A DNA stretch of 55,683 nucleotides from IMG/VR virus record IMGVR_UViG_3300027970_000033, positions 1 to 55,683 of that record; one strand, written 5' to 3'. A program made the position numbers and the translations under genes. The notes below the pieces were generated by a model. That model did not search any database, was not told the DNA's origin, and was given only the letters and a program-made list of their open reading frames with translations. Below are positions 2,917 through 33,940 of the stretch, in pieces (the first letter of the stretch is position 1; each line of letters starts with the position of its first letter). Origin of the DNA: a virus.

Positions 2917-3994
2917 CCTGCTCCTCCTCCCACTCTTCTGATTCTCTGTATTCAAAGTGTACCTGTGAAAATAAGCACTCGGCACTATTTATCCACTCCC
3001 CGCAGCCGCATATACATCTCATTGAATTAACGCCTACTTTAATAACTAGAAACTCATGTTCAGTAAATTCAACGAAATCTGAAAAAGATTCTTCTGCACT
3101 ATTATATAGTACGCTAACTGTATCTACTGATTCTCTTGTAATATCGTTATACCAAAATTCACACGCATCTTTATCTCTCATTAAATCCTTGTTGATTATA
3201 TAACTCACGTCTACTCTTTCACGCTTAGCCTCAGGCCAGTTAAACATTTCTTTAAGTAAATAGTTAGTTGCTTTGCTATATGCTGTATTGGCAGCTGGAT
3301 ATTGTCGAGATTGAATTGCATACTGTGAGGCTGGAGATACATATATTAGCTGGCGCCAACACTTTCTACCAGATTCAGTTAGCACATATGCAACCATAGT
3401 TACAGAGTCCATGAGGTAAGCTAGTGTTGCAGTCTTATATTGACCATCAAGCGATTGACATGAGCGCCAGCCTGTAGTATTCTCAGACATCATAAAGTAG
3501 TCTAGCGGATCAATAGATAGTACAAGTGTGCGCTCTTTGCCGAATGATTCAAGTATTTTACTATATTCTATTTGAAACTCATTGCGAGCGCCATTGGCTT
3601 CGGGGATAAGCTGTAACAGTACTCTGCTTACCTTCATACCAGAGTTAAACTTTTTACCAAGAATAACACGCTCAGTCGCCAATGCGTTATTCATGATCTC
3701 ATCTTCTTTTATAGAGTTTAAAAACCAGCAAGCTAGAGTGAATTCTTTTCTGCGATAGAATCTTTTTGTAAGACTGTATATCATCTCCTGTATTTCTTTT
3801 GCAGAAAAAGATGCTGTGATTTTTTTCTCTACTCGAATTACTCCGCCCATCATATTATAAATAGCTTCTTTATTTTTTGCCCATGTAGAAATCTTGGCAG
3901 ATAATGAAATGTCAACATTGATATCAGCATGCTTAATTAGAGGATTAAGTACCTCCTGTAACTCAGTAACATAACTTTGTTCATATTGTATCAT
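2903..3994 (-). CDS. Unknown protein, paralogue of the 845-1975 product
   Basis: Function not recognised. Residues about 150-260 carry LVLSIDPLDYFMMSEN, WRSCQSLDG, MVAYVLTES and SRQYPAAN, matching the block in the 845-1975 product. The C-terminus has CICGCGEW and a further Cys, a reduced version of the zinc-binding tail of its relative. The pair brackets the metallopeptidase, with which both are translationally linked. Start ATG at 3994 lies 4 bases after the stop of the upstream gene. Duplication followed by divergence is inferred from the shared block. Confidence 0.8.
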   Translation of the reverse strand: MIQYEQSYVTELQEVLNPLIKHADINVDISLSAKISTWAKNKEAIYNMMGGVIRVEKKITASFSAKEIQEMIYSLTKRFYRRKEFTLACWFLNSIKEDEIMNNALATERVILGKKFNSGMKVSRVLLQLIPEANGARNEFQIEYSKILESFGKERTLVLSIDPLDYFMMSENTTGWRSCQSLDGQYKTATLAYLMDSVTMVAYVLTESGRKCWRQLIYVSPASQYAIQSRQYPAANTAYSKATNYLLKEMFNWPEAKRERVDVSYIINKDLMRDKDACEFWYNDITRESVDTVSVLYNSAEESFSDFVEFTEHEFLVIKVGVNSMRCICGCGEWINSAECLFSQVHFEYRESEEWEEEQDDNQ

Positions 3995-3998
3995 CTCA

Positions 3999-5279
3999 TT
4001 ACCTCCCCATATATTCTAAGGCTTCTTTTAAAGAAACATTACATGATGTCAGTATTTCTTCTGTTTTATAGTAGTCGTTTGATGAAAGATATATAGCTAC
4101 TTTATCCCAATGCTTCTTACATATTTCTTTTGTCATTCTATTGCTTGTATAAATATTCATCATAGTATTTGCTACTTTATTTAAATTGTAAGAATCTTGT
4201 CGATTCTTATACTCAAAACATTGATCGATAGCATCTAGCATGCCCAAGACTTGCTCGTCTGTAATAGTTTGTATAGTGTTTTGTTTAACCTCAAGTGGCC
4301 CATACTTTGAAATTACTCTTATTAAGAGATCAAAATCTTCGTAGAATAGTGGTTCTAATACTGATTCTAAATCATCACGTTGTAGACCTACAAATAAATT
4401 TTGAATATCTATATTGTCCCAATCTTTATGAGTAAGAGTTACAAACTTTAATTGTCTTCTGAATGTGTAGGAACTTCCTATAACGTGTTCAAAGAATCCA
4501 GAAAGTGATGCTTTTACTGCTGGACGTGATATCCCCATATCTAACTTTGCTACATACTCTATCCACAAGAATTGTAGCATAACCAATACATCTGTAAAGT
4601 TATTTACATTTTTTGTTAGATAGTATAGGTGTGATACATGAGTGAGTTGCTCTAGTTGGTATTGTACTATTTCTGGGTTTATAAAGTCACGAAATCTTAA
4701 AAATTGTTTAGCTATGCGTCGATCCGTTAAAACAAAGTCAACTAGTACGTCAGCAAGATCAGTGTCATATAATATACATAGTCTTTTAATTAGATTGATT
4801 TCTGCACCCAAAGCCACAACAAGAACAATCAAAGATTTGCGATGGTAGGGACGGAGAGTGAGTAGTTGTGTATCTTCAATATTGCTGATTGTTTGTAACG
4901 CTATATCTCTATTTTCTATTAAATAGAATTCATTATTTTTAAGATAGTTGTCTATATCATGGCAAACAAATTCTAATAAGAATCTATTCGATCCACTTAT
5001 TCTTCTCAGTACATCTTCATAAGAATTGAATACAGCCTCAAGAGATGCGCTACTTTCTCTACATATTTGGCGGGCTAAATCTCCAGCACCCACAAGAATA
5101 GCGAGGGCTACTAATGCGCGCCCTGTACTTGGTGTTATATAATCAAAATCTCTACTTGTAAGGCATCCTAATTCTAGAGCTAGGATTTCCTTGTCTTCCA
5201 TAATCTTTTCAAAGTGTGTGTCAATGTATTCTTTTATGTGTCTTGAGTTTAAAATCTCTTTCAAGTTTACGCCTATCAT
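3999..5279 (-). CDS. Unknown 426-residue helical protein
   Basis: No family recognised. The product is rich in Leu, Ile, Asp and Glu with many predicted helices and no membrane segment or Cys cluster; it may be a helical-repeat scaffold. An upstream in-frame ATG at 5357 would run into uvsE. The ATG at 5279 follows AGGGGTGAT at good spacing and is chosen instead. It lies 4 bases downstream of the uvsE stop and 4 bases upstream of the next gene, so it is part of the same early operon. Confidence 0.78.
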   Translation of the reverse strand: MIGVNLKEILNSRHIKEYIDTHFEKIMEDKEILALELGCLTSRDFDYITPSTGRALVALAILVGAGDLARQICRESSASLEAVFNSYEDVLRRISGSNRFLLEFVCHDIDNYLKNNEFYLIENRDIALQTISNIEDTQLLTLRPYHRKSLIVLVVALGAEINLIKRLCILYDTDLADVLVDFVLTDRRIAKQFLRFRDFINPEIVQYQLEQLTHVSHLYYLTKNVNNFTDVLVMLQFLWIEYVAKLDMGISRPAVKASLSGFFEHVIGSSYTFRRQLKFVTLTHKDWDNIDIQNLFVGLQRDDLESVLEPLFYEDFDLLIRVISKYGPLEVKQNTIQTITDEQVLGMLDAIDQCFEYKNRQDSYNLNKVANTMMNIYTSNRMTKEICKKHWDKVAIYLSSNDYYKTEEILTSCNVSLKEALEYMGR

Positions 5280-17189: not shown

Positions 17190-17208
17190 CTACTACACAT
17201 ATGTAAGA

Positions 17209-17278
17209 TGGGGTTCTAGGATTCGAACCTAGGATCACAGAGTCAAAGTCTGTTGCCTTGCCACTTGGCGAAACCCCA
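17209..17278 (-). tRNA. tRNA-Gln (UUG)
   Basis: Full cloverleaf with TGGGGTT/AACCCCA acceptor, anticodon loop CTTTGAC, T-loop TTCGAAT. CCA not encoded. Last gene of the tRNA operon. Confidence 0.93.
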
Positions 17279-17282
17279 ATGG

Positions 17283-17355
17283 TGGACCTGAGCAGGATCG
17301 AACTGCTGACCTCCTGCTTGCAAGGCAGGCGCTCTCCCAGCTGAGCTACAGGCCC
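17283..17355 (-). tRNA. tRNA-Ala (UGC)
   Basis: GGGCCTG acceptor, anticodon stem CCTGC/GCAGG with loop CTTGCAA, T-loop TTCGATC. No encoded CCA. Confidence 0.93.
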
Positions 17356-17358
17356 AAA

Positions 17359-17433
17359 TAGAAATAGGAGGATTCGAACCTCCGACCCCTTGCTTCCAAG
17401 GCAAGTGCTCTAACCTGACTGAGCTATATCTCT
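17359..17433 (-). tRNA. tRNA-Pro (UGG)
   Basis: AGAGATA/TATTTCT acceptor with one G-U pair, anticodon loop CTTGGAA, T-loop TTCGAAT. Confidence 0.9.
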
Positions 17434-17442
17434 GCAATACTA

Positions 17443-17516
17443 CGTGCCCTGAGAGGCTCGAACTCCCGACCTTTTGATTCGTAGTCAAATGCTCTATCCA
17501 ACTGAGCTAAAGGCAC
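17443..17516 (-). tRNA. tRNA-Arg (ACG)
   Basis: GTGCCTT acceptor, anticodon loop CTACGAA (A34, probably inosine if the host TadA acts on it), T-loop TTCGAGC. Confidence 0.92.
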
Positions 17517-17519
17517 ATA

Positions 17520-17592
17520 AGCGGACGATGGGGCTCGAACCCACAAACCTTCGCCTTGGCAAGGCGACATTCTACCATTGAACTACATCCGC
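17520..17592 (-). tRNA. tRNA-Gly (GCC)
   Basis: GCGGATG acceptor, anticodon loop TTGCCAA between TCGCC/GGCGA, discriminator U. Confidence 0.93.
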
Positions 17593-17596
17593 ATAA

Positions 17597-17667
17597 AGGT
17601 GTCACCTAGATTCGAACTAGGGGTGGGGCCTTTGCAGGGCCCTGCCTTACCACTTGGCTACGACACC
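17597..17667 (-). tRNA. tRNA-Cys (GCA)
   Basis: GGTGTCG acceptor, anticodon stem GGGCC/GGCCC with loop CTGCAAA, discriminator U as expected for Cys. Confidence 0.93.
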
Positions 17668-17671
17668 ATGA

Positions 17672-17750
17672 TGCACATAGAGGGACTTGAACCCCCACGA
17701 TTTCTCGCCAGCTTCTAAGGCTGGTGCGTCTGCCATTCCGCCATATGTGC
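17672..17750 (-). tRNA. tRNA-Leu (UAG)
   Basis: GCACATA acceptor, anticodon loop CTTAGAA between CCAGC/GCTGG, a variable arm of intermediate length, T-loop TTCAAGT. Confidence 0.92.
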
Positions 17751-17754
17751 GTGG

Positions 17755-17827
17755 CGAAGCTGATGGGGATCGAACCCACGTTCTCCTGCGTGACAGGCAG
17801 GCGTGTTAACCACTACACCACAGCTTC
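17755..17827 (-). tRNA. tRNA-Asp (GUC)
   Basis: GAAGCTG acceptor, anticodon loop CTGTCAC between CCTGC/GCAGG, discriminator G. Confidence 0.93.
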
Positions 17828-17832
17828 ATAAG

Positions 17833-17905
17833 GGTGATCAGTGGGAATTGAACCCACGATGTTGGAGTCACAATCCAATGCGTTAACCATTTCGCCATGA
17901 TCACC
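17833..17905 (-). tRNA. tRNA-His (GUG)
   Basis: GTGATCA acceptor with an extra G at -1 facing C73, the His identity pair; anticodon loop TTGTGAC. Confidence 0.92.
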
Positions 17906-17909
17906 ATGG

Positions 17910-17994
17910 AGGAGAGAGTGGGATTTGAACCCACGGACGCTTGCACGCCTGCGGTTTTCAAGACCGCTGCTTTAAGCCACTCAGCCATCTCTCC
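17910..17994 (-). tRNA. tRNA-Ser (UGA)
   Basis: GGAGAGA acceptor, anticodon loop CTTGAAA, long variable arm. The discriminator reads U rather than the G usual for bacterial Ser tRNA. Confidence 0.9.
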
Positions 17995-17997
17995 ATA

Positions 17998-18085
17998 AGG
18001 AAAAGAAGGGATTCGAACCCTTGCATCGCTTGCGCGATCTAGCTCATTAGCAGAGAGCCCCCTTAAGCCTCTTGGGTACTTTTCC
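17998..18085 (-). tRNA. tRNA-Ser (GCU)
   Basis: GGAAAAG acceptor, anticodon loop CTGCTAA closed by a T-T mismatch, long variable arm. Discriminator U here also. Confidence 0.88.
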
Positions 18086-18089
18086 AGAG

Positions 18090-18172
18090 TGGAAGGTGAT
18101 GGATTCGAACCACCGAACCCGCAAGGGAAGAGATTTACAGTCTCCAGCGTTTAGCCACTTCGCTAACCTTCC
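18090..18172 (-). tRNA. tRNA-Tyr (GUA)
   Basis: GGAAGGT acceptor, anticodon loop CTGTAAA, long variable arm as in bacterial Tyr tRNA, discriminator A. Confidence 0.92.
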
Positions 18173-18177
18173 ATAAA

Positions 18178-18249
18178 TGCCGCCAGAGAGAGTCGAACTC
18201 CCAACCTACTGCTTACAAGGCAGTTGCTCTGCCATTGAGCTATGGCGGC
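18178..18249 (-). tRNA. tRNA-Thr (UGU)
   Basis: GCCGCCA acceptor, anticodon loop CTTGTAA between ACTGC/GCAGT, discriminator A. Confidence 0.93.
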
Positions 18250-18253
18250 GTAG

Positions 18254-18327
18254 TGGACGCTGATGGAATCGAACCACCACTCTCACCCTTATCAGGGGTG
18301 TGCTTTAACCAATTAAGCTAAGCGTCC
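18254..18327 (-). tRNA. tRNA-Ile (GAU)
   Basis: GGACGCT acceptor, anticodon loop CTGATAA between CACCC/GGGTG, discriminator A. Confidence 0.93.
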
Positions 18328-18330
18328 ATA

Positions 18331-18402
18331 TGACCCGTAGGAGATTCGAACTCCTGTCTTCGCAGTGAAAGTGCGATGTCTTAACCACTTGACTAACGGG
18401 CC
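18331..18402 (-). tRNA. tRNA-Glu (UUC)
   Basis: GGCCCGT acceptor with one G-U pair, anticodon loop CTTTCAC between TCGCA/TGCGA. Confidence 0.92.
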
Positions 18403-18403
18403 G

Positions 18404-18479
18404 TGGTTGCGAAGGTGGGACTCGAACCCACGATTTTTAGGTTATGAGCCTAACGAGTTAGCCGCTACTCTACTCCGCG
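18404..18479 (-). tRNA. Initiator tRNA-fMet (CAU), CCA encoded
   Basis: CAU anticodon with bacterial initiator marks: unpaired C1-A72 at the acceptor end (CGCGGAG with CTTCGCA), A11-U24 in the D stem (GAGT/ACTC) and ACCA encoded. The anticodon stem keeps two of the three usual G-C pairs (AGG/CCT instead of GGG/CCC). First tRNA read from the promoter at 18701-18729. Confidence 0.9.
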
Positions 18480-18700
18480 ATAGAAAGCCTCTGGGGGACA
18501 GAGGCGAAAGAGGAAGGAACCTCGCCAGACGCTCATATTTAGCTTCTAAGGCGAGTTCGATGCGTAGGGGATGAGCAACCCATCCCAATCTTACAAGCTC
18601 GTGAGAAGCCATTCTAGGCTCTCTCTCTAGGATACGATGCTGATCCTGTCAGTTCAGTCGCTCTGACAAGCGTAAGGTCCAAATTCAACCTTATATATAT
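18480..18700 (-). ncRNA. Structured leader or small RNA upstream of the tRNA cluster
   Basis: About 215 transcribed bases before the first tRNA. On the leftward strand several hairpins follow one another: TGTCAG...CTGACA, GGGATG...CATCCC, CTCGCC...GGCGAG and GCCTCTG-TCCCC-CAGAGGC just before tRNA-fMet. An ORF of 56 codons also exists but runs into the tRNA and lacks a ribosome site. A processed small RNA is inferred. Confidence 0.45.
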
Positions 18701-18729
18701 ATTATAACATGACGGGGTAGGTTTGTCAA
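18701..18729 (-). promoter_or_regulatory. Promoter of the tRNA operon
   Basis: TTGACA (18724-18729), 17 bp, TATAAT (18701-18706). It starts right after the 3' end of tRNA-Asn and would drive 16 tRNAs. Confidence 0.93.
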
Positions 18730-18730
18730 G

Positions 18731-18805
18731 TGGCTGCCTGAGTAGGGCTCGAACCTACAACCCCGCGGTTAACAGCCGCGTGCTCTACCATTGAGCTATC
18801 AGGCA
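18731..18805 (-). tRNA. tRNA-Asn (GUU), CCA encoded
   Basis: TGCCTGA/TCAGGCA acceptor, G discriminator, encoded CCA, anticodon loop CTGTTAA between CGCGG/CCGCG. Read with the upstream 18831-19199 gene, separate from the main tRNA promoter. Confidence 0.93.
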
Positions 18806-25772: not shown

Positions 25773-26918
25773 GTGTCTCGTTACATCATTGATACTAACA
25801 TTCTTATGGGCGTCGAAAACTTTGAAAAATTCCTACAGTCCCTGGGCCCCAAAACAGAAAAATATATATTATACGAAGTACTGCGCGAACTCGATTCAAA
25901 CAAATGGAAAGAAGGCGCTAAAGCCCAAAAAGCACGACAGGGCATACGCCACATCGAACAATTTCAATCTTCTTTGCTCTTCACTCAATCGCCCACTAAC
26001 ACAGGCGAAATAGACGACCGCATTATTGACGCAGCCTCAAGCTTGAACGCCATCATCGTCTCAAACGACATAGGCATGACGCTAAAGGCCAAGGCGCTCG
26101 ATGTACCATGCATACATTACAAAGAATGGGTGTCCATGCCCACAGGTTGGGTGGGGGACTTAGATGCAGCAAAACTTGGCGACTACATCATACAGCGAGA
26201 CGCCCAGTCAAATTTTGTAGAGCAAATTCTGCGCAAGGATGCCGCGGGAGCTCTGCGGCCAGTACGCGAGATCAGACTTAAAAGCCAATACTTTCCCGCA
26301 ATAAAGCCTCTCGACGAGTATCAGATATGCGCCGTCGATTCGCTCAAGAACGACGACATCACTGTGCTCACAGGTCATGCAGGAACTGGTAAAACCCTAC
26401 TTTCTCTTTCCTTTGCTCTTTCCGAGCTACAACAGCAACACAGACGAAAACTCATTATATTCGTCAATCCCACAAAAGTGCGCGGCTCTGAGGAGCTAGG
26501 CTTTTACTCGGGCGACCGCATTGAGAAGCTGCTACAAAACAGCATAGGCGCCGTCCTAAGCTCTAAATTGGGCGACTCGCTAGTCGTAGATATGCTACTA
26601 CAGCAAAATAAAATTGAAATCTTTCCTATTAGCGATATACGCGGCTACGAAGTCCACAAAGACGACATACTGTACATTACAGAGGCGCAAAACCTAAACA
26701 CAGACCTCATCAAACTTGTAGTGCAGCGCTGCGTAGAGGGCTCTAAAATCATCCTAGAAGGCGACCCCGAAACTCAACTAGACTCGTGGGCGTTTGAGGG
26801 CAAAAATAATGGCTTGAGGCGTCTCGTTGAAATTTTTAGTGGCTTTCCTGGTTTTGGACACGTGAATCTACCTATTATCCGCAGAAGCCGCATCGCCCAA
26901 AAAGCAGAGGAGTTATAA
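25773..26918 (+). CDS. PIN-PhoH fusion (YlaK-like ATPase/RNase)
   Basis: N-terminal PIN nuclease domain (YIIDTNILM, later DDRIIDAA and SND acidic residues, about 1-130) joined to a PhoH P-loop domain with Walker A GHAGTGKT near 205. The Walker B region reads ILYITEAQN where PhoH normally has a DEAQN, so the first acidic residue is Thr. Such proteins are thought to combine RNA cleavage with RNA unwinding. GTG start after AGAGGA. Between the zinc-ribbon gene and the terminase genes. Confidence 0.88.
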   Translation: MSRYIIDTNILMGVENFEKFLQSLGPKTEKYILYEVLRELDSNKWKEGAKAQKARQGIRHIEQFQSSLLFTQSPTNTGEIDDRIIDAASSLNAIIVSNDIGMTLKAKALDVPCIHYKEWVSMPTGWVGDLDAAKLGDYIIQRDAQSNFVEQILRKDAAGALRPVREIRLKSQYFPAIKPLDEYQICAVDSLKNDDITVLTGHAGTGKTLLSLSFALSELQQQHRRKLIIFVNPTKVRGSEELGFYSGDRIEKLLQNSIGAVLSSKLGDSLVVDMLLQQNKIEIFPISDIRGYEVHKDDILYITEAQNLNTDLIKLVVQRCVEGSKIILEGDPETQLDSWAFEGKNNGLRRLVEIFSGFPGFGHVNLPIIRRSRIAQKAEEL

Positions 26919-26919
26919 T

Positions 26920-27981
26920 ATGTATTGTAACAAATGTGTGCGCGAACTGGGCGAAGACAACTTTTACCTAGATAAAACAGGTACACATATGCCCACTTGC
27001 AAAAAATGCATCACTATGCACGTGAATGTGCACGAACCCAGCACTTTATATCATATTTTAGAGAAAATAGATATCCCATTCATACCTTCTGAATGGGAGA
27101 ATCTTGTTAATAGATATGCGGCAGGCGACCCCAAAAAGAATAAGGCGACAAGCATAGTGGGGCGCTATATATCTAAAATGAAGTTGGCTCAATATGCGGG
27201 TTCTGTGTGGGCAGATACGCCACGATTTCTTGAAGAGCATAACAATCGCTTAATAAATCTAAAGAAAATGGAAGAAGAGCGACGCTTACAATACTCTAAC
27301 GCCACTGGTATGGGGCCTGTAGAGATTCAAGAGCTTGAGGATGACGAGGGCAATAAGTTTGATTTTGGCTCTACCATGACGCGCATCCAAAAAGACCGCA
27401 TGATACAAAAATGGGGGCGCCTGTACAAAGAAGAAGAATGGATACAACTGGAAGAATTTTACAATAAGATGCACGAAACCTATGACATACAGGGCGCCTC
27501 ACACGAAGACTACCTGAAAATGATATGTAAGACCAGCCTCAAGATGAATCAAGCTATCGACACTGGCGACATCGACGGCTTCTCTAAACTAAGCAAGAAC
27601 TATGACGCTATGATGCGCTCAGCCAAGTTCACAGCTGTACAAAATAAGCCAGAAGAAAGCAATTTCATCAGTTCTATTGGCGAAATGGTGCGATTGTGCG
27701 AGTCTGAGGGCTTCATTCCTCGCTATCACGCGCAAGAATCTCAAGATGTAGTGGACTTAACGCTCAAAGATATGACTGAATACCTTACTCGCCTAGTTAA
27801 AACAGAGCTTAATCTGGGTTCGCTCATCGAATCTACTGTTAAAATGATGGAAAATGAGGCCGAGCAGCAAAAAGACCCACAAACAATCGAAGAGGTGCTC
27901 GACGATAATGACTTTTTAGAGTTTAGTGACCTTCTAGATGAGGAGGTTCTGAGCGATGACAGAGAAATCGGGACTAACTGA
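26920..27981 (+). CDS. Putative terminase small subunit-like protein
   Basis: 353 residues with a zinc knuckle at the start (CNKCVREL and CKKC), a helical middle and an acidic C-terminus. It lies directly before terL and overlaps it by 26 bases, the usual place of the small terminase subunit. Identity rests mainly on position; it may be another packaging factor. Confidence 0.55.
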   Translation: MYCNKCVRELGEDNFYLDKTGTHMPTCKKCITMHVNVHEPSTLYHILEKIDIPFIPSEWENLVNRYAAGDPKKNKATSIVGRYISKMKLAQYAGSVWADTPRFLEEHNNRLINLKKMEEERRLQYSNATGMGPVEIQELEDDEGNKFDFGSTMTRIQKDRMIQKWGRLYKEEEWIQLEEFYNKMHETYDIQGASHEDYLKMICKTSLKMNQAIDTGDIDGFSKLSKNYDAMMRSAKFTAVQNKPEESNFISSIGEMVRLCESEGFIPRYHAQESQDVVDLTLKDMTEYLTRLVKTELNLGSLIESTVKMMENEAEQQKDPQTIEEVLDDNDFLEFSDLLDEEVLSDDREIGTN

Positions 27982-28510
27982 GGAACGTGTGAAGGCCGCC
28001 ATCCCTTCATTTAGAGAATGGATTAGCTTTTGGCGCGAGTATCCTGATATATTTGTAGATATGCTCACGCCACCCAAATCTAATTTTCGTCTTTTCTTTT
28101 ACCAACGAATATTTTTGCGCACAGCTATGAGGCACAGATACTGCTACGCAACCTTTACACGTGCCTTCTCCAAATCTTTTCTTTCTATTCTTTTACTAGT
28201 AATACGCTGCGTGCTTTTTCCAGGCGCTAAATTGTTTATTGCATCTGCGGGAAAAGAGCAAGCAGCTAACATTGCGCGAGAAAAGATAGAGGAGATAGTA
28301 GAGTTGTTGCCCCCATTACATAATGAGATAGATTGGCGGGCAGGTAAAACTCAATTCGCTAAGGACTATGTGCGCATCCAGTTTAAAAATGGGTCGCGCC
28401 TAGACATTGTGGCTATTAGAGAAAGTACGCGTGGTGGCAGACGTCATGGCGGCCTAATAGAAGAAGTGATCCTTGTGGACGGCGATAAATTAAATAGTGT
28501 AATTTTGCCT
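27956..28510 (+). CDS. terL: Terminase large subunit, exon 1
   Basis: Codes for the N-terminal ATPase part (185 codons): YQRIFLRTAMRH, a Walker A-like segment ATFTRAFSKSF and the motor motif GGLIEEVILVDGDKLN. The frame runs on as nonsense after VILP. Joining 28510 to 28746 gives ILP-LMNVSRR, as in related terminases. ATG follows AGGAGG by 9 bases. The spliced product has 566 residues. Confidence 0.88.
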
Positions 28511-28745
28511 CAACAAATAGGGGCCCTAGTAGTGTAAATTACTAGTGAAGAAGTGGGTGAACCCAGTAGCATGGGGTGTGCCGAAAGGTGCTAACGAGGA
28601 AGGCGAAAGCTAATCTCGTGCCAAGCCTTGATTTTTAAGGAAGGTGTAGAGACTATCTCGCAAGAGAGTAGGGTGGAGGTTGCTACCACTCGAAGTGCCC
28701 ACCAACCAATATGTTGGTTGATGAAATAGTCCATGTGAAAACATG
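28511..28745 (+). ncRNA. Group I intron 1 in terL (235 nt, no ORF)
   Basis: Exon end GCCU pairs with a GGGC guide (P1, U-G at the cut), and the next exon CUUAU pairs with AUAGG of the same guide (P10). Core: P4 ACGAG/CTCGT (28594-28598 and 28615-28619), P7 GACTA/TAGTC (28651-28655 and 28727-28731), P8 CTC-GCAA-GAG, and a final CATGT/ACATG hairpin ending in G28745. Confidence 0.85.
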
Positions 28746-28829
28746 CTTATGAACGTTTCGCGCAGAGCCGCCAATGGTGAGGTTGACGCCCAAGAAACGC
28801 TCAATAAGAGTCAAATATATGTAACGACT
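28746..28829 (+). CDS. terL: Terminase large subunit, exon 2 (84 nt)
   Basis: Exactly 28 codons: LMNVSRRAANGEVDAQETLN then KSQIYVTT. This fills the gap between exon 1 and the AGFKDSFAY start of exon 3, as expected for the conserved N-V-x-R-R to I-T-T-A-G stretch of this terminase family. Confidence 0.88.
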
Positions 28830-29096
28830 AAACTAATGGTCCGCATACCAGTAATGATATGTGATAAGCCTTTTAATTGCGGGGAACTCCTAAAGGACAA
28901 TCCGCAGCCAAGATAGAACAATAAGTTCTATAAGGTTCAACGACTATCTCGAAAGAGAGTAAAGCCACAAGCTAATGGTGGAAGAAATAGAGGCTACCCT
29001 ACAGATGAGGGTAAAGATATAGTCTGAACTGCATGGTAACATGCAGATGCGAGTAATGTCGCTGGCTGAGAGTTGCGAACTCAGTTGAACATATTG
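28830..29096 (+). ncRNA. Group I intron 2 in terL (267 nt, no ORF)
   Basis: Classic phage group I core: AATTGCGGGG...AATCCGCAGCCAAG (P4 TGCGG 28878-28882 with CCGCA 28902-28906), GGTTCAACGACTATC and GATATAGTCTGAAC (P7 GACTA/TAGTC, 28942-28946 and 29020-29024), P8 CTC-GAAA-GAG. Exon end GACU pairs with GGUC in P1. Intron ends in G29096. Confidence 0.92.
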
Positions 29097-30158
29097 GCAG
29101 GTTTTAAGGACAGCTTTGCGTATCAAAAGCAACTGCAATTATTGCTGTGGCAGATTATGCGGCCAGGCTCTTCATTTGTCTTTGGGGGCACGTGGCGCAT
29201 TCCAGTGCATCACAATCTATTAGACCGCGGATTTGTGCGCGATATGCGGCAGGATGGAACGTTCAATGATGCTGCTTTTGAGCGCGAATATGAAAGTATT
29301 TGGTCGGGCACTATGGAGGACGCTTTCTTTAATGCAGATCAATTCGATAAGTACAGAGTACTAGCACAACCAGAGACGGAGCACTCAAATAAAGGCGCTA
29401 CAGGCTTCTATTATATCTTTGGTGTTGACGTCGGGCGCCAAGGTTCTCAGACAGTTATTATGGTATTTAAAGTAAATCCACAGCCTCAGGGAGCTGCATT
29501 TAAATCTTTGGTAAATATATTTACTATTGAGAGCGAGCATTTTGAGGATCAAGCTATCTATATAAAACAATTATTTTATAAATATCTACCTAAGGCAATA
29601 GCGGTTGATGCGAATGGTTTGGGTGCAGGACTTGTAGATTATCTTGTTACAGAAAATACTGATAAGCGCACTCGCGAAGTACTAGCACCTTTTGGGGTTA
29701 TAAATGACGATCGTGGCGATTTTAGAAAATATTACGCCAGCAATGTGGCGACAGAGCACAATTTATTATATTTAATAAAGGCCAACGCTGATATTAATAA
29801 TGAGGCCCATGTAAATGTGGTAACTCAAATAAGTAGTGGTAAAGTTCGATTTTTAATCGACGAGCGCACAGCAAAAAATAAACTTATGGCGACAAAATAT
29901 GGCAAAGAAATGCTACCTGAAGTGCGTCAAGATTATTTGCGCCCATTTGTACTTACTTCAATTCTTAAAGAAGAAATGATGAATCTGCGCGAAAAGCGCG
30001 ATGGTAAAAACGTAGTATTAGAAAAGGCCAATAATAGAATTTCAAAAGATAAATTTTCTGCCTTTGAATATGGTTTATATTATATTAAAATACTTGAAGA
30101 TAATGATAAAAGAAAAAAAGGAAAATATAGAGCTAGTGACTTTATGTTTTACAGTTAA
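29097..30158 (+). CDS. terL: Terminase large subunit, exon 3
   Basis: 353 codons plus stop: AGFKDSFAYQKQ, FVFGGTWRIP, FEREYESIWSG and the RNase H-like nuclease domain (FGVDVGRQGSQT, AVDANGLGAGLVDYL, and a late Lys/Asp region). An open frame begins upstream at 29073, but those codons belong to the intron. The nuclease cuts concatemers during packaging. Confidence 0.9.
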   Translation, partial: AGFKDSFAYQKQLQLLLWQIMRPGSSFVFGGTWRIPVHHNLLDRGFVRDMRQDGTFNDAAFEREYESIWSGTMEDAFFNADQFDKYRVLAQPETEHSNKGATGFYYIFGVDVGRQGSQTVIMVFKVNPQPQGAAFKSLVNIFTIESEHFEDQAIYIKQLFYKYLPKAIAVDANGLGAGLVDYLVTENTDKRTREVLAPFGVINDDRGDFRKYYASNVATEHNLLYLIKANADINNEAHVNVVTQISSGKVRFLIDERTAKNKLMATKYGKEMLPEVRQDYLRPFVLTSILKEEMMNLREKRDGKNVVLEKANNRISKDKFSAFEYGLYYIKILEDNDKRKKGKYRASDFMFYS

Positions 30159-30170
30159 GGAGTGGGGCAG

Positions 30171-30356
30171 ATGGAGCAATCAGAATTTATTGATAGAAGA
30201 CCTATTGATAGTTTTGTCTTTGACAGTTTAGTGGAGCTTGGGTACACTCCTTCGGCAAAAGAAGCACAAGATATTACTGATGTATTCTTCGATTTACTTG
30301 TAAATATGGGGATAGAGGTTATAGAAATTGACGAGGATGATATAGATGAACTCTAA
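30171..30356 (+). CDS. Unknown 61-residue acidic protein
   Basis: MEQSEFIDRRPIDSFVFDSL, then a helix and an acidic EIDEDDIDEL end. ATG at 30171 fits AAGGAG at 8 bases; the GTG at 30162 is too close. Between terL and the nuclease-like gene, overlapping the latter by 11 bases. Confidence 0.65.
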   Translation: MEQSEFIDRRPIDSFVFDSLVELGYTPSAKEAQDITDVFFDLLVNMGIEVIEIDEDDIDEL

Positions 30357-30729
30357 CTTAGGGGCTTTTAAAGCCCCAATGTCACGAGGGGAAATAAAAG
30401 TAAAAGAAATTTTAGAGCAGTCAGGCTTGCTTTATGAACAACAATATGTCTTTCCTGATTTAACTTCAAGCTCGGGCAAACCACTTCGTTTTGACTTTGC
30501 GGTTTTCGATGAGGATGGAGAGTTAGATTTTCTTATAGAGTATAATGGAGAACAACACTATACAGCTGTTGATGCATATGGGGGCGGCCGCAAATTAGCC
30601 CAACAAAAATTTAATGATACTCAAAAATTGCGATATTGCGCTCGACATGGACATAGACTTGTTACTATTCCTTATTATGATTATGAGATTTTGAATTTGG
30701 ATTATATTTTTGAAAAAGCTGGGATATAA
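30346..30729 (+). CDS. Vsr/PD-(D/E)XK-like endonuclease
   Basis: 127 residues: SRGEIKVKEILEQSGL, then LRFDFAVF, the active-site-like IEYNGEQHY, and a C-terminal helix and LVTIPYYD. This is the pattern of small very-short-patch-repair or PD-(D/E)XK nucleases, including free-standing phage homing enzymes. It lies 190 bases after intron-bearing terL, so it may move the introns in trans; this is inference. No HNH or GIY-YIG motif. Confidence 0.75.
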   Translation: MNSNLGAFKAPMSRGEIKVKEILEQSGLLYEQQYVFPDLTSSSGKPLRFDFAVFDEDGELDFLIEYNGEQHYTAVDAYGGGRKLAQQKFNDTQKLRYCARHGHRLVTIPYYDYEILNLDYIFEKAGI

Positions 30730-32287: not shown

Positions 32288-33940
32288 ATGCAAAATAGTA
32301 GTGTACCGTTAAACTTGCCTATAGAATTTATAAAAGTTGAACCTATTAATCCATTAATTACAAAAACTGTAGTAAAAATAATGTATGCGGGGAAGAATAG
32401 AAATGGTTCATATATCTCTAAGGAAGTTGCGGAAAAGATGGCTGCTTCGCTTCCTAACGTACCCATTGTGGGTGAATGGAGTGAAGAGGGTGGCGACTTT
32501 CTTTCGCATGGACAAGAACAGTTACAAAATGGAAAAATTAGAACAAGTACGCGTCCTATTGGGGTTGTTCCAACAAATACAAAAATATGGTGGGAAAAAT
32601 ATCTAGACAACGATTCTATTGAGCGAGAATATATGTGCTGTGAGGCATATATATGGACTGGTCGCTATCCAGAAACAGAAAAAATCTTTAGGGATGGCGT
32701 AAATAATCAGTCTATGGAACTTGATTCTGATACAATTAAGGGCACTTGGGCACAGATTGAAAATAGAGGCAGGGAATATTTTATAATAGAAGAGGCCATA
32801 TTTACAGCACTATGTGTTTTGGGAGAAGATGTCGAGCCTGCTTTTGAAGGCGCAGCTATAAACCCTCCATTTTATCATTATATAAACACAAACGAATCCA
32901 AAGTTGTTGATGAAATGGCCTTATTAAAACAAGAGTTGGCCGAAGCGTTGTCTGAATATGCTAAAGAAAAAATTACCAACTTTCCCGAAAGAGGAGACGA
33001 CTTAGCTATTACTTTGAGAAATTCTCAATGGGAGCTTTTTGACCCTTCTTTTGCGGCGATGATTAAAGAAAAGCATCCAGACATTTGGCGCCTAGGAGGA
33101 AATATAAGGGGAAATAGTCAGTATCGAAAACTTTCTCAGGCACTAGGAAAATCTTCTGATGATCTATCTAATACTCTAAAAGATGCAATTAAACTAAGAG
33201 AAGCTTGGGTTGCGCGACACTACAGAGATTTTAGAATTGCTGGAGTTATAGCGCAAATTAAATGGCTTGCTGTTGGTTCTCGCGGAGAAAAGTATATGAA
33301 AGATTTGGTCAAAGAAGAGATTCGTAAACGCAGAAATAGAAAGAGAAAATTTGAAAAGGAGGTAAGTGACTTAATGGAAGAAAAAGAGGGACTTACTGGA
33401 CTTATTAATCAAGAAGACGAAGAAGCCATGGTAGAAGTTGAAACAGATGGTGAAGAAGAAGTTTCTTTGAAGGATATGATTACTGAAATTGTTAAAGAAG
33501 TTATGGCAACGATGAAATCACAAGTAGTTGAAGAAGAAAAAAACATGGAAGAAGAAATGCCAGAAGAAGAAATGGCAAAGAAAGAAGATAAGATGAAAAT
33601 GGCTAAAGCAGAGGAAGACGCTGCTGCTGCTTATAGTGCAGAAGTTGAGGGTTATAAATCAGAAATTTCAGCCCTAAAGTCTAAGTTAGAGGAATATGAA
33701 AATAAAGAAAAGATGTCTTTAATTGAAAAATTCTCTATGCTTGATTCTGCATTTATTGAAAATGTTAAAGCTAACTTAGCTTCCTTTTCAGTTGAGCAAT
33801 TAGAAGCAAAATTATCTGTTGAGGCAGTTCGTTCAGGACTTGTATTTAGCCCTAAACAAGAAAATGTTTCTACATACACTATTAATGATTTTGAAAAAAC
33901 TTCAGCTCCTAGTTGGATAGCTGCGTTAGAAAAACTATAA
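32288..33940 (+). CDS. Prohead protease fused to scaffold
   Basis: 550 residues. The N-terminal 200 look like a prohead protease (KNRNGSYISKEVAEKMAASL, GVNNQSMELDSDTIKG). About 230-345 is an inserted helical domain with LREAWVARHYRDFRIAG and IKWLAVGSRGEKYMKD that I have seen in other phage head proteins. The rest is acidic coiled coil with Met/Glu repeats, a scaffold. TTG at 32282 is possible, but GGGGG suits ATG 32288. Usually cuts itself and the capsid after assembly. Confidence 0.78.
   Translation: MQNSSVPLNLPIEFIKVEPINPLITKTVVKIMYAGKNRNGSYISKEVAEKMAASLPNVPIVGEWSEEGGDFLSHGQEQLQNGKIRTSTRPIGVVPTNTKIWWEKYLDNDSIEREYMCCEAYIWTGRYPETEKIFRDGVNNQSMELDSDTIKGTWAQIENRGREYFIIEEAIFTALCVLGEDVEPAFEGAAINPPFYHYINTNESKVVDEMALLKQELAEALSEYAKEKITNFPERGDDLAITLRNSQWELFDPSFAAMIKEKHPDIWRLGGNIRGNSQYRKLSQALGKSSDDLSNTLKDAIKLREAWVARHYRDFRIAGVIAQIKWLAVGSRGEKYMKDLVKEEIRKRRNRKRKFEKEVSDLMEEKEGLTGLINQEDEEAMVEVETDGEEEVSLKDMITEIVKEVMATMKSQVVEEEKNMEEEMPEEEMAKKEDKMKMAKAEEDAAAAYSAEVEGYKSEISALKSKLEEYENKEKMSLIEKFSMLDSAFIENVKANLASFSVEQLEAKLSVEAVRSGLVFSPKQENVSTYTINDFEKTSAPSWIAALEKL

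Follow-up and report, generated by a model that had tools for sequence, protein, structure and literature searches.

In the Bastillevirinae, including SIOphi and phiAGATE, the terminase large-subunit gene (terL) carries group I introns of IA2/IA3 type, with some genes split by two or three of them, and splicing has been demonstrated both in vitro and in vivo (PMC11878797). These introns average 802 nt, mostly bear endonuclease ORFs, and in SIOphi an internal terL exon is skipped (PMC11878797). A terL intron bearing an HNH gene is also spliced in phage CB7 (PMC7344957), and a very small exon lies between two introns of the phiNIT1 ribonucleotide reductase gene (PMC11878797). In the Vequintavirus phages RudolfGeigy and JEP1, terL is annotated as a three-piece CDS with two small group I introns, which in RudolfGeigy score 84 and 96 bits against Rfam model RF00028. 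Enterococcus phages EF1 and EF5 (MF001358 and MF001361) carry a 273-nt terL intron, a 90-nt in-frame exon and then a 250-nt ORF-less group I intron; in EF1 a third intron, which contains an HNH gene, lies further downstream. In the EF1 record (MF001358, L003), the pieces of terL are entered as individual hypothetical proteins and the first two introns (within 3515-4127) are unannotated; among the open-access papers searched, we found none describing these two introns.

The window analyzed here, a virus record taken at its full length of 55.7 kb, contains a terL gene at positions 27956-30158 on the + strand whose reading frame is interrupted twice. PHROG profiles identify the gene as a terminase. 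It is bordered by a gene of unknown function on one side and by two small ORFs and then the portal gene on the other. We conclude that two IA-type group I introns, acquired independently, very likely interrupt the ATPase half of this gene, flanking a 28-codon exon and yielding one 566-aa TerL. The exons are as follows:

27956 to 28510, + strand: terL exon 1, 185 codons, 3' end ...ILP; PHROG 2 terminase large subunit (2.7e-8), PHROG 15503 (1.4e-70)
28746 to 28829, + strand: terL exon 2, 84 nt, 28 codons (LMNVSRR...YVTT)
29097 to 30158, + strand: terL exon 3, AGFK... to the stop, carrying the nuclease domain; PHROG 5909 terminase large subunit (7.3e-7)

The length of each exon is a multiple of three, both interruptions fall between codons (phase 0), and together the exons encode 566 aa without a stop. 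The original prediction, made from two breaks in the frame 84 nt apart, was that splicing would restore ILP-LMNVSRR and VTT-AGFK around a 28-codon exon. Alignment with TerL of Enterococcus phage H1, which is uninterrupted and 591 residues long, bears this out: the spliced protein is 53% identical over 562 columns (63% for the exon 1 product), and neither junction shows a gap (VILP|LMNVSRR versus VILP|MMNVSRR; YVTT|AGFK versus YITS|AGFK). The TT-A at junction 2 may correspond to the terminase coupling motif. A profile search of PDB sequences found no terminase. The predicted fold of the TerL of an intron-free relative (L009) matches the T4 gp17, Sf6 gp2, and HK97 terminases; in this AlphaFold model, pLDDT is below 50 over residues 155-289, the region of the junctions, and placement of the junctions on TerL motifs by structure was therefore dropped.

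This arrangement is not new. The first intron of EF1 and EF5 belongs to the same family as intron 1 of the window and occupies the identical site, and their second belongs to the family of intron 2; in contrast, their second insertion lies 6 nt further on (SAG^FKD versus VTT^AG in the window). The second terL intron of the RudolfGeigy/JEP1 group is the closest named relative of window intron 2 by blastn. However, these phages gave no tblastn match to the window TerL, their middle exon is longer, and their introns occupy other sites, the first at an FDEG motif. Geobacillus virus E3, whose TerL is related to that of the window, has an intron of the same family as intron 1, without an ORF (KP144388, ∼33538-33847), but in the tape-measure gene, with terL uninterrupted. 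The window and EF1 offer a comparative case in which two unrelated intron families occupy the same 30-codon stretch of the packaging ATPase in distantly related phages.

Both insertions have the fold of a group I intron. Intron 1 is composed of the following elements:

28511 to 28745, + strand: group I intron 1, 235 nt, ORF-less; starts after U28510, terminal G28745
28507 to 28524, + strand: P1, exon GCCU (28507-28510) with GGGC (28521-28524); U28510.G28521 at the 5' splice site
28526 to 28545, + strand: P2, CTAGTA/TACTAG
28553 to 28702, + strand: P3, GTGGGTG (28553-28559) with TGCCCAC (28696-28702), 7/7 pairs
28562 to 28591, + strand: two P3-P4 hairpins, CCCA/TGGG and GTGCC/GGTGC; hallmark of the intron 1 family, missing in intron 2
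28594 to 28645, + strand: P4, P5, P6, and P6a, ACGAG/CTCGT, GGC/GCT, GCC/GGT, and CCTT/AAGG
28651 to 28731, + strand: P7, the guanosine-binding helix, GACTA (28651-28655) with TAGTC (28727-28731)
28656 to 28667, 28671 to 28691, and 28703 to 28720, + strand: P7.1, P7.2, and P8 (CAACC/GGTTG), all inside P7
28733 to 28745, + strand: P9, ATGT-GAAA-ACAT, then the terminal G

The helices of intron 2 were read from the RF00028 alignment:

28830 to 29096, + strand: group I intron 2, 267 nt, ORF-less; starts after U28829, terminal G29096
28826 to 28841, + strand: P1, exon GACU (28826-28829) with GGUC (28838-28841); U28829.G28838 at the 5' splice site
28867 to 28995, + strand: P3, AGCCTTT (28867-28873) with AGAGGCT (28989-28995); abuts P4, no extra hairpins
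28942 to 29024, + strand: P7, GACTA (28942-28946) with TAGTC (29020-29024); encloses P7.1 (28947-28958), P7.2, and P8
28996 to 29012, + strand: P8, ACCCT/AGGGT
29029 to 29084, + strand: P9, P9.1, and P9.2 hairpins

Both introns retain an intact set of core helices, with the P3-P7 pseudoknot surrounded by P4-P6, P8, and P9. Both share the P7 pair GACTA/TAGTC, as had been read from the sequence, and in both a P1 helix at the exon end places a U.G pair at the 5' splice site while a terminal G precedes the 3' exon. P7.1 and P7.2 between P7 and P3 place both introns in group IA, by the classification features given in PMC3984707 and in agreement with the subtype first proposed. A hairpin directly after the P7 5' strand (CTC/GAG) had been taken for P8; it is instead P7.1, and the true P8 follows the P3 3' strand.

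The covariance model search gave a divided result for the prediction that both gaps would be recognized as group I. Intron 2 scored 92.7 bits (E = 1.4e-22) against RF00028, above the cut-off of 50, whereas intron 1 scored 37.9 bits (E = 3.8e-6 for the scan of 55.7 kb), below that cut-off, which is a detection threshold and not a biological criterion. Homologues of intron 1 at the same site pass it (52.1 bits in EF1; 51.1 bits in L014). Because the cut-off misses a real member of the intron family with two extra P3-P4 hairpins, counts of phage introns made at this threshold are probably too low.

For intron 1, covariation within its family provides further evidence of the fold. With a 16-base pattern from the P6/P7 region, the family was found in 83 viral stretches, its plan being the P3 5' strand, AA, hairpin 1, GTGT, hairpin 2, TAA, and P4. 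Across 18 aligned members and 31 pairs, including those of the P3-P7 pseudoknot, 95.9% of cells were paired and two-sided changes were observed in 16 pairs, a result equaled by 0 of 500 shuffles; when pairing partners were slid as a control, pairing fell to 35 to 43%. P3 was paired in 99.2% of cells in the 18 sequences, with two-sided changes in four pairs. P7 never varies among these members and therefore adds no covariation evidence. P1 is changed on both sides in L051 (CCCU/GGGG). Two other registers for P3 of intron 1, GGTG/CACC (from the Rfam alignment) and GGTGT/GTGCC, were replaced by GTGGGTG/TGCCCAC, for which a single tested family member falls short of full pairing. Together with the RF00028 scores and the empty sites described below, these data uphold the assignment of group I cores to both gaps.

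A P10 helix had also been proposed at intron 1. In the register that gives the P1 U.G pair, two contiguous pairs are present (C28746-G28520 and U28747-A28519), so that this P10 is weak at 2 bp; a 5-bp version would reuse the G needed by P1. At intron 2, inspection of the sequence detected no P10. The splice points are unique under the rule of a U before each intron and a G at its end, since the only shift that preserves the join, by one C at junction 1, breaks this rule.

We infer that the introns are removed by the usual two steps. A guanosine bound at P7 would first attack behind the U of the P1 U.G pair (U28510 and U28829); the freed exon would then join after the terminal G (G28745 and G29096), and the product would be a single 566-aa TerL. 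Splicing of related introns has been demonstrated in terL genes of phages (PMC11878797, PMC7344957). If the inserts no longer spliced, the gene would be a split gene or a pseudogene whose pieces are either produced individually or not produced. Such cases have precedent in a non-splicing, intron-like insert reported in phage CB7 (PMC7344957) and in one in Aeh1 nrdA, according to a citation in PMC7344957. Against this, the core helices of both introns are all intact and the three exons are open; in an unspliced message, the frame of the ATPase domain would run only eight codons into intron 1 before a stop, and exon 3 lacks an evident start. Moreover, a stretch of 7720 nt that includes both introns is identical in a second contig of the same phage (L008). 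We therefore regard loss of splicing as very improbable. Because the window comes from a collection of metagenome virus contigs, an error of assembly or sequencing was considered; given the identity of L008 and the presence of homologous introns at identical or nearly identical sites in a cultured phage, EF1, an artefact of this kind is scarcely credible.

The original prediction also held that the two introns look related, so that one may derive from the other. Our comparisons contradict this. Intron 1 is a member of the phage family with two extra P3-P4 hairpins; intron 2 falls in another phage family, which is the commoner one. When the two introns were aligned globally, the score was 128, and shuffled sequences averaged 109 and reached 132 at most, whereas intron 1 scored 250 against the EF1 intron at the same site and intron 2 scored 264 against the second of the RudolfGeigy terL introns. 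In a tree built from 28 cores with the P3-P4 hairpins left out, the introns fell into two clades with 100/100 support, although the rows were picked by family motifs and the support is thus partly built in. The AU test, which rejected a sister relationship of intron 1 and intron 2 (P = 0.00015), and the structural difference are stronger points for separate families than the clade support. The two introns thus have independent ancestry and are not derived from each other.

In favor of copying of one intron from the other within terL are the identity of P7 and of 19/20 bases in the P7/P7.1 patch (28651-28670 versus 28942-28961), together with the small size and the lack of an ORF in both. However, the patch sequence is widespread: GACTATCTCGnAAGAGAGTA with one base added in front, as the 21-base pattern CGACTATCTCGNAAGAGAGTA, was found in at least 120 viral stretches. 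The patch was present in 3 of the 13 intron 2 family introns selected independently of the pattern; in the intron 1 family, 2 of 55 carried it. Outside the patch, the two sequences are no more alike than shuffles. With the different P3-P4 architectures, the two fully supported clades, the AU result, and closer relatives elsewhere for each (at the same site in EF1 for intron 1, in Vequintavirus terL for intron 2), copying within the gene is very unlikely. Only 11 of 715 cross-family intron pairs have patches this alike, and the shared patch may reflect chance or a small local conversion.

Among relatives of the phage, the introns are patchily distributed. A search of IMG/VR with exon 1 returned 45 loci. 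Across the 48 loci formed by these, the window, and two phage records, terL is uninterrupted in 40. L009, whose TerL is 93% identical in protein (83% in nucleotides over the spliced ORF), has neither intron, and its empty sites read CCT^TTAATG and ACC^GCGGG, compared to CCT^intron^CTTATG and ACT^intron^GCAGG in the window. Empty sites are precise at the nucleotide level in L009 to L011, and the terL genes of L010 to L013 are intron-free. The empty sites of L009 also fit the proposed junctions. With such near relatives, the locus is suited to tests of how introns lacking an ORF persist.

The first intron site is common to the window, EF1, L014, and L051 exactly, although compared piece by piece the TerL proteins of the latter three are ∼44 to 63% identical to that of the window. 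At the second site, introns are found at three distinct points: in the window, in EF1 and L014 (6 nt downstream of the window's), and in L042 (∼7 nt upstream of the window's, placed by eye). Both sites lie in a run of nearly invariant residues, with P185 before junction 1 and T212, T213, A214, and G215 around junction 2, which fits the rule that phage introns occupy conserved coding sequence (PMC3984707).

No long ORF was found in either intron of the window, as originally stated, and neither encodes a homing endonuclease such as marks mobile introns. Since both lack an endonuclease ORF, their ancestors were probably mobile introns that either shed the ORF or were passed on through recombination with relatives carrying introns. 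At the second site, L014 has an intron 809 nt long with a 166-aa HNH ORF, and the EF1 intron at the same point is 250 nt and ORF-less; loss or gain of an ORF is therefore directly visible. The second-site intron of L042 holds a GIY-YIG gene.

The short exon between the introns could itself be subject to choice. Joining of the intron 1 5' site to the intron 2 3' site, if it occurred often or as a programme, would give a TerL of 538 residues; the skip is in frame, introduces no stop, and removes 28 residues of the ATPase domain. The 90-nt counterpart exon of EF1 is likewise in frame, an internal terL exon is skipped in SIOphi (PMC11878797), and an exon is skipped in phage Twort, according to a citation in PMC3073962. 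However, phase 0 at both sites may be chance, and the shortened product would lose R191, G196, Y210, and T213, which are invariant or nearly so, making DNA packaging by it unlikely. Frequent or programmed skipping is thus unlikely. It is quite unlikely that the intron pair acts as a switch, in which the 28-codon exon is kept or skipped to give the full motor and a shortened TerL, and has been retained as such in this phage and in the distant EF1. Our preferred reading remains a single full-length TerL; the very short in-frame exon makes the locus suitable for tests of exon skipping.

Other features were observed in and around these terL genes. At 30346-30729 (+ strand), the window encodes a 127-aa protein that matches PHROG 9084 "homing endonuclease" (1.4e-26) and also PHROG 559, a VSR-like family that is intron-encoded in terL of other phages (PMC11878797). 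A VSR-like gene lies directly downstream of terL in 37/45 IMG/VR relatives, intron-free ones included, and also in EF1 and H1. We considered a free-standing VSR-like endonuclease driving the introns in trans and rejected it: the gene is found in nearly all intron-free relatives too and therefore shows no association with introns. It seems to be a resident nuclease next to the packaging motor and is perhaps domesticated. In L052 (6001-10783), terL is split by three introns of ∼1 kb whose ORFs are, by eye, VSR-like, GIY-YIG, and HNH, the VSR-like one being, at 35% identity, a distant copy of the resident gene that follows terL; an Rfam scan at E = 0.01 did not detect these introns.

In-frame TAG codons occur in the otherwise intact terL genes of L018, L030, L044, L046, L047, L048, and L052 (3 to 10 in the first six), and these phages probably read TAG as an amino acid. 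The terL genes of L021 and L027 contain one or two in-frame TGA codons. Elsewhere in the window, 17 tRNA genes form an array at 17207-18805 (- strand), and a PIN domain fused to a PhoH-like ATPase is encoded at 25773-26918 (+ strand), two genes upstream of terL.
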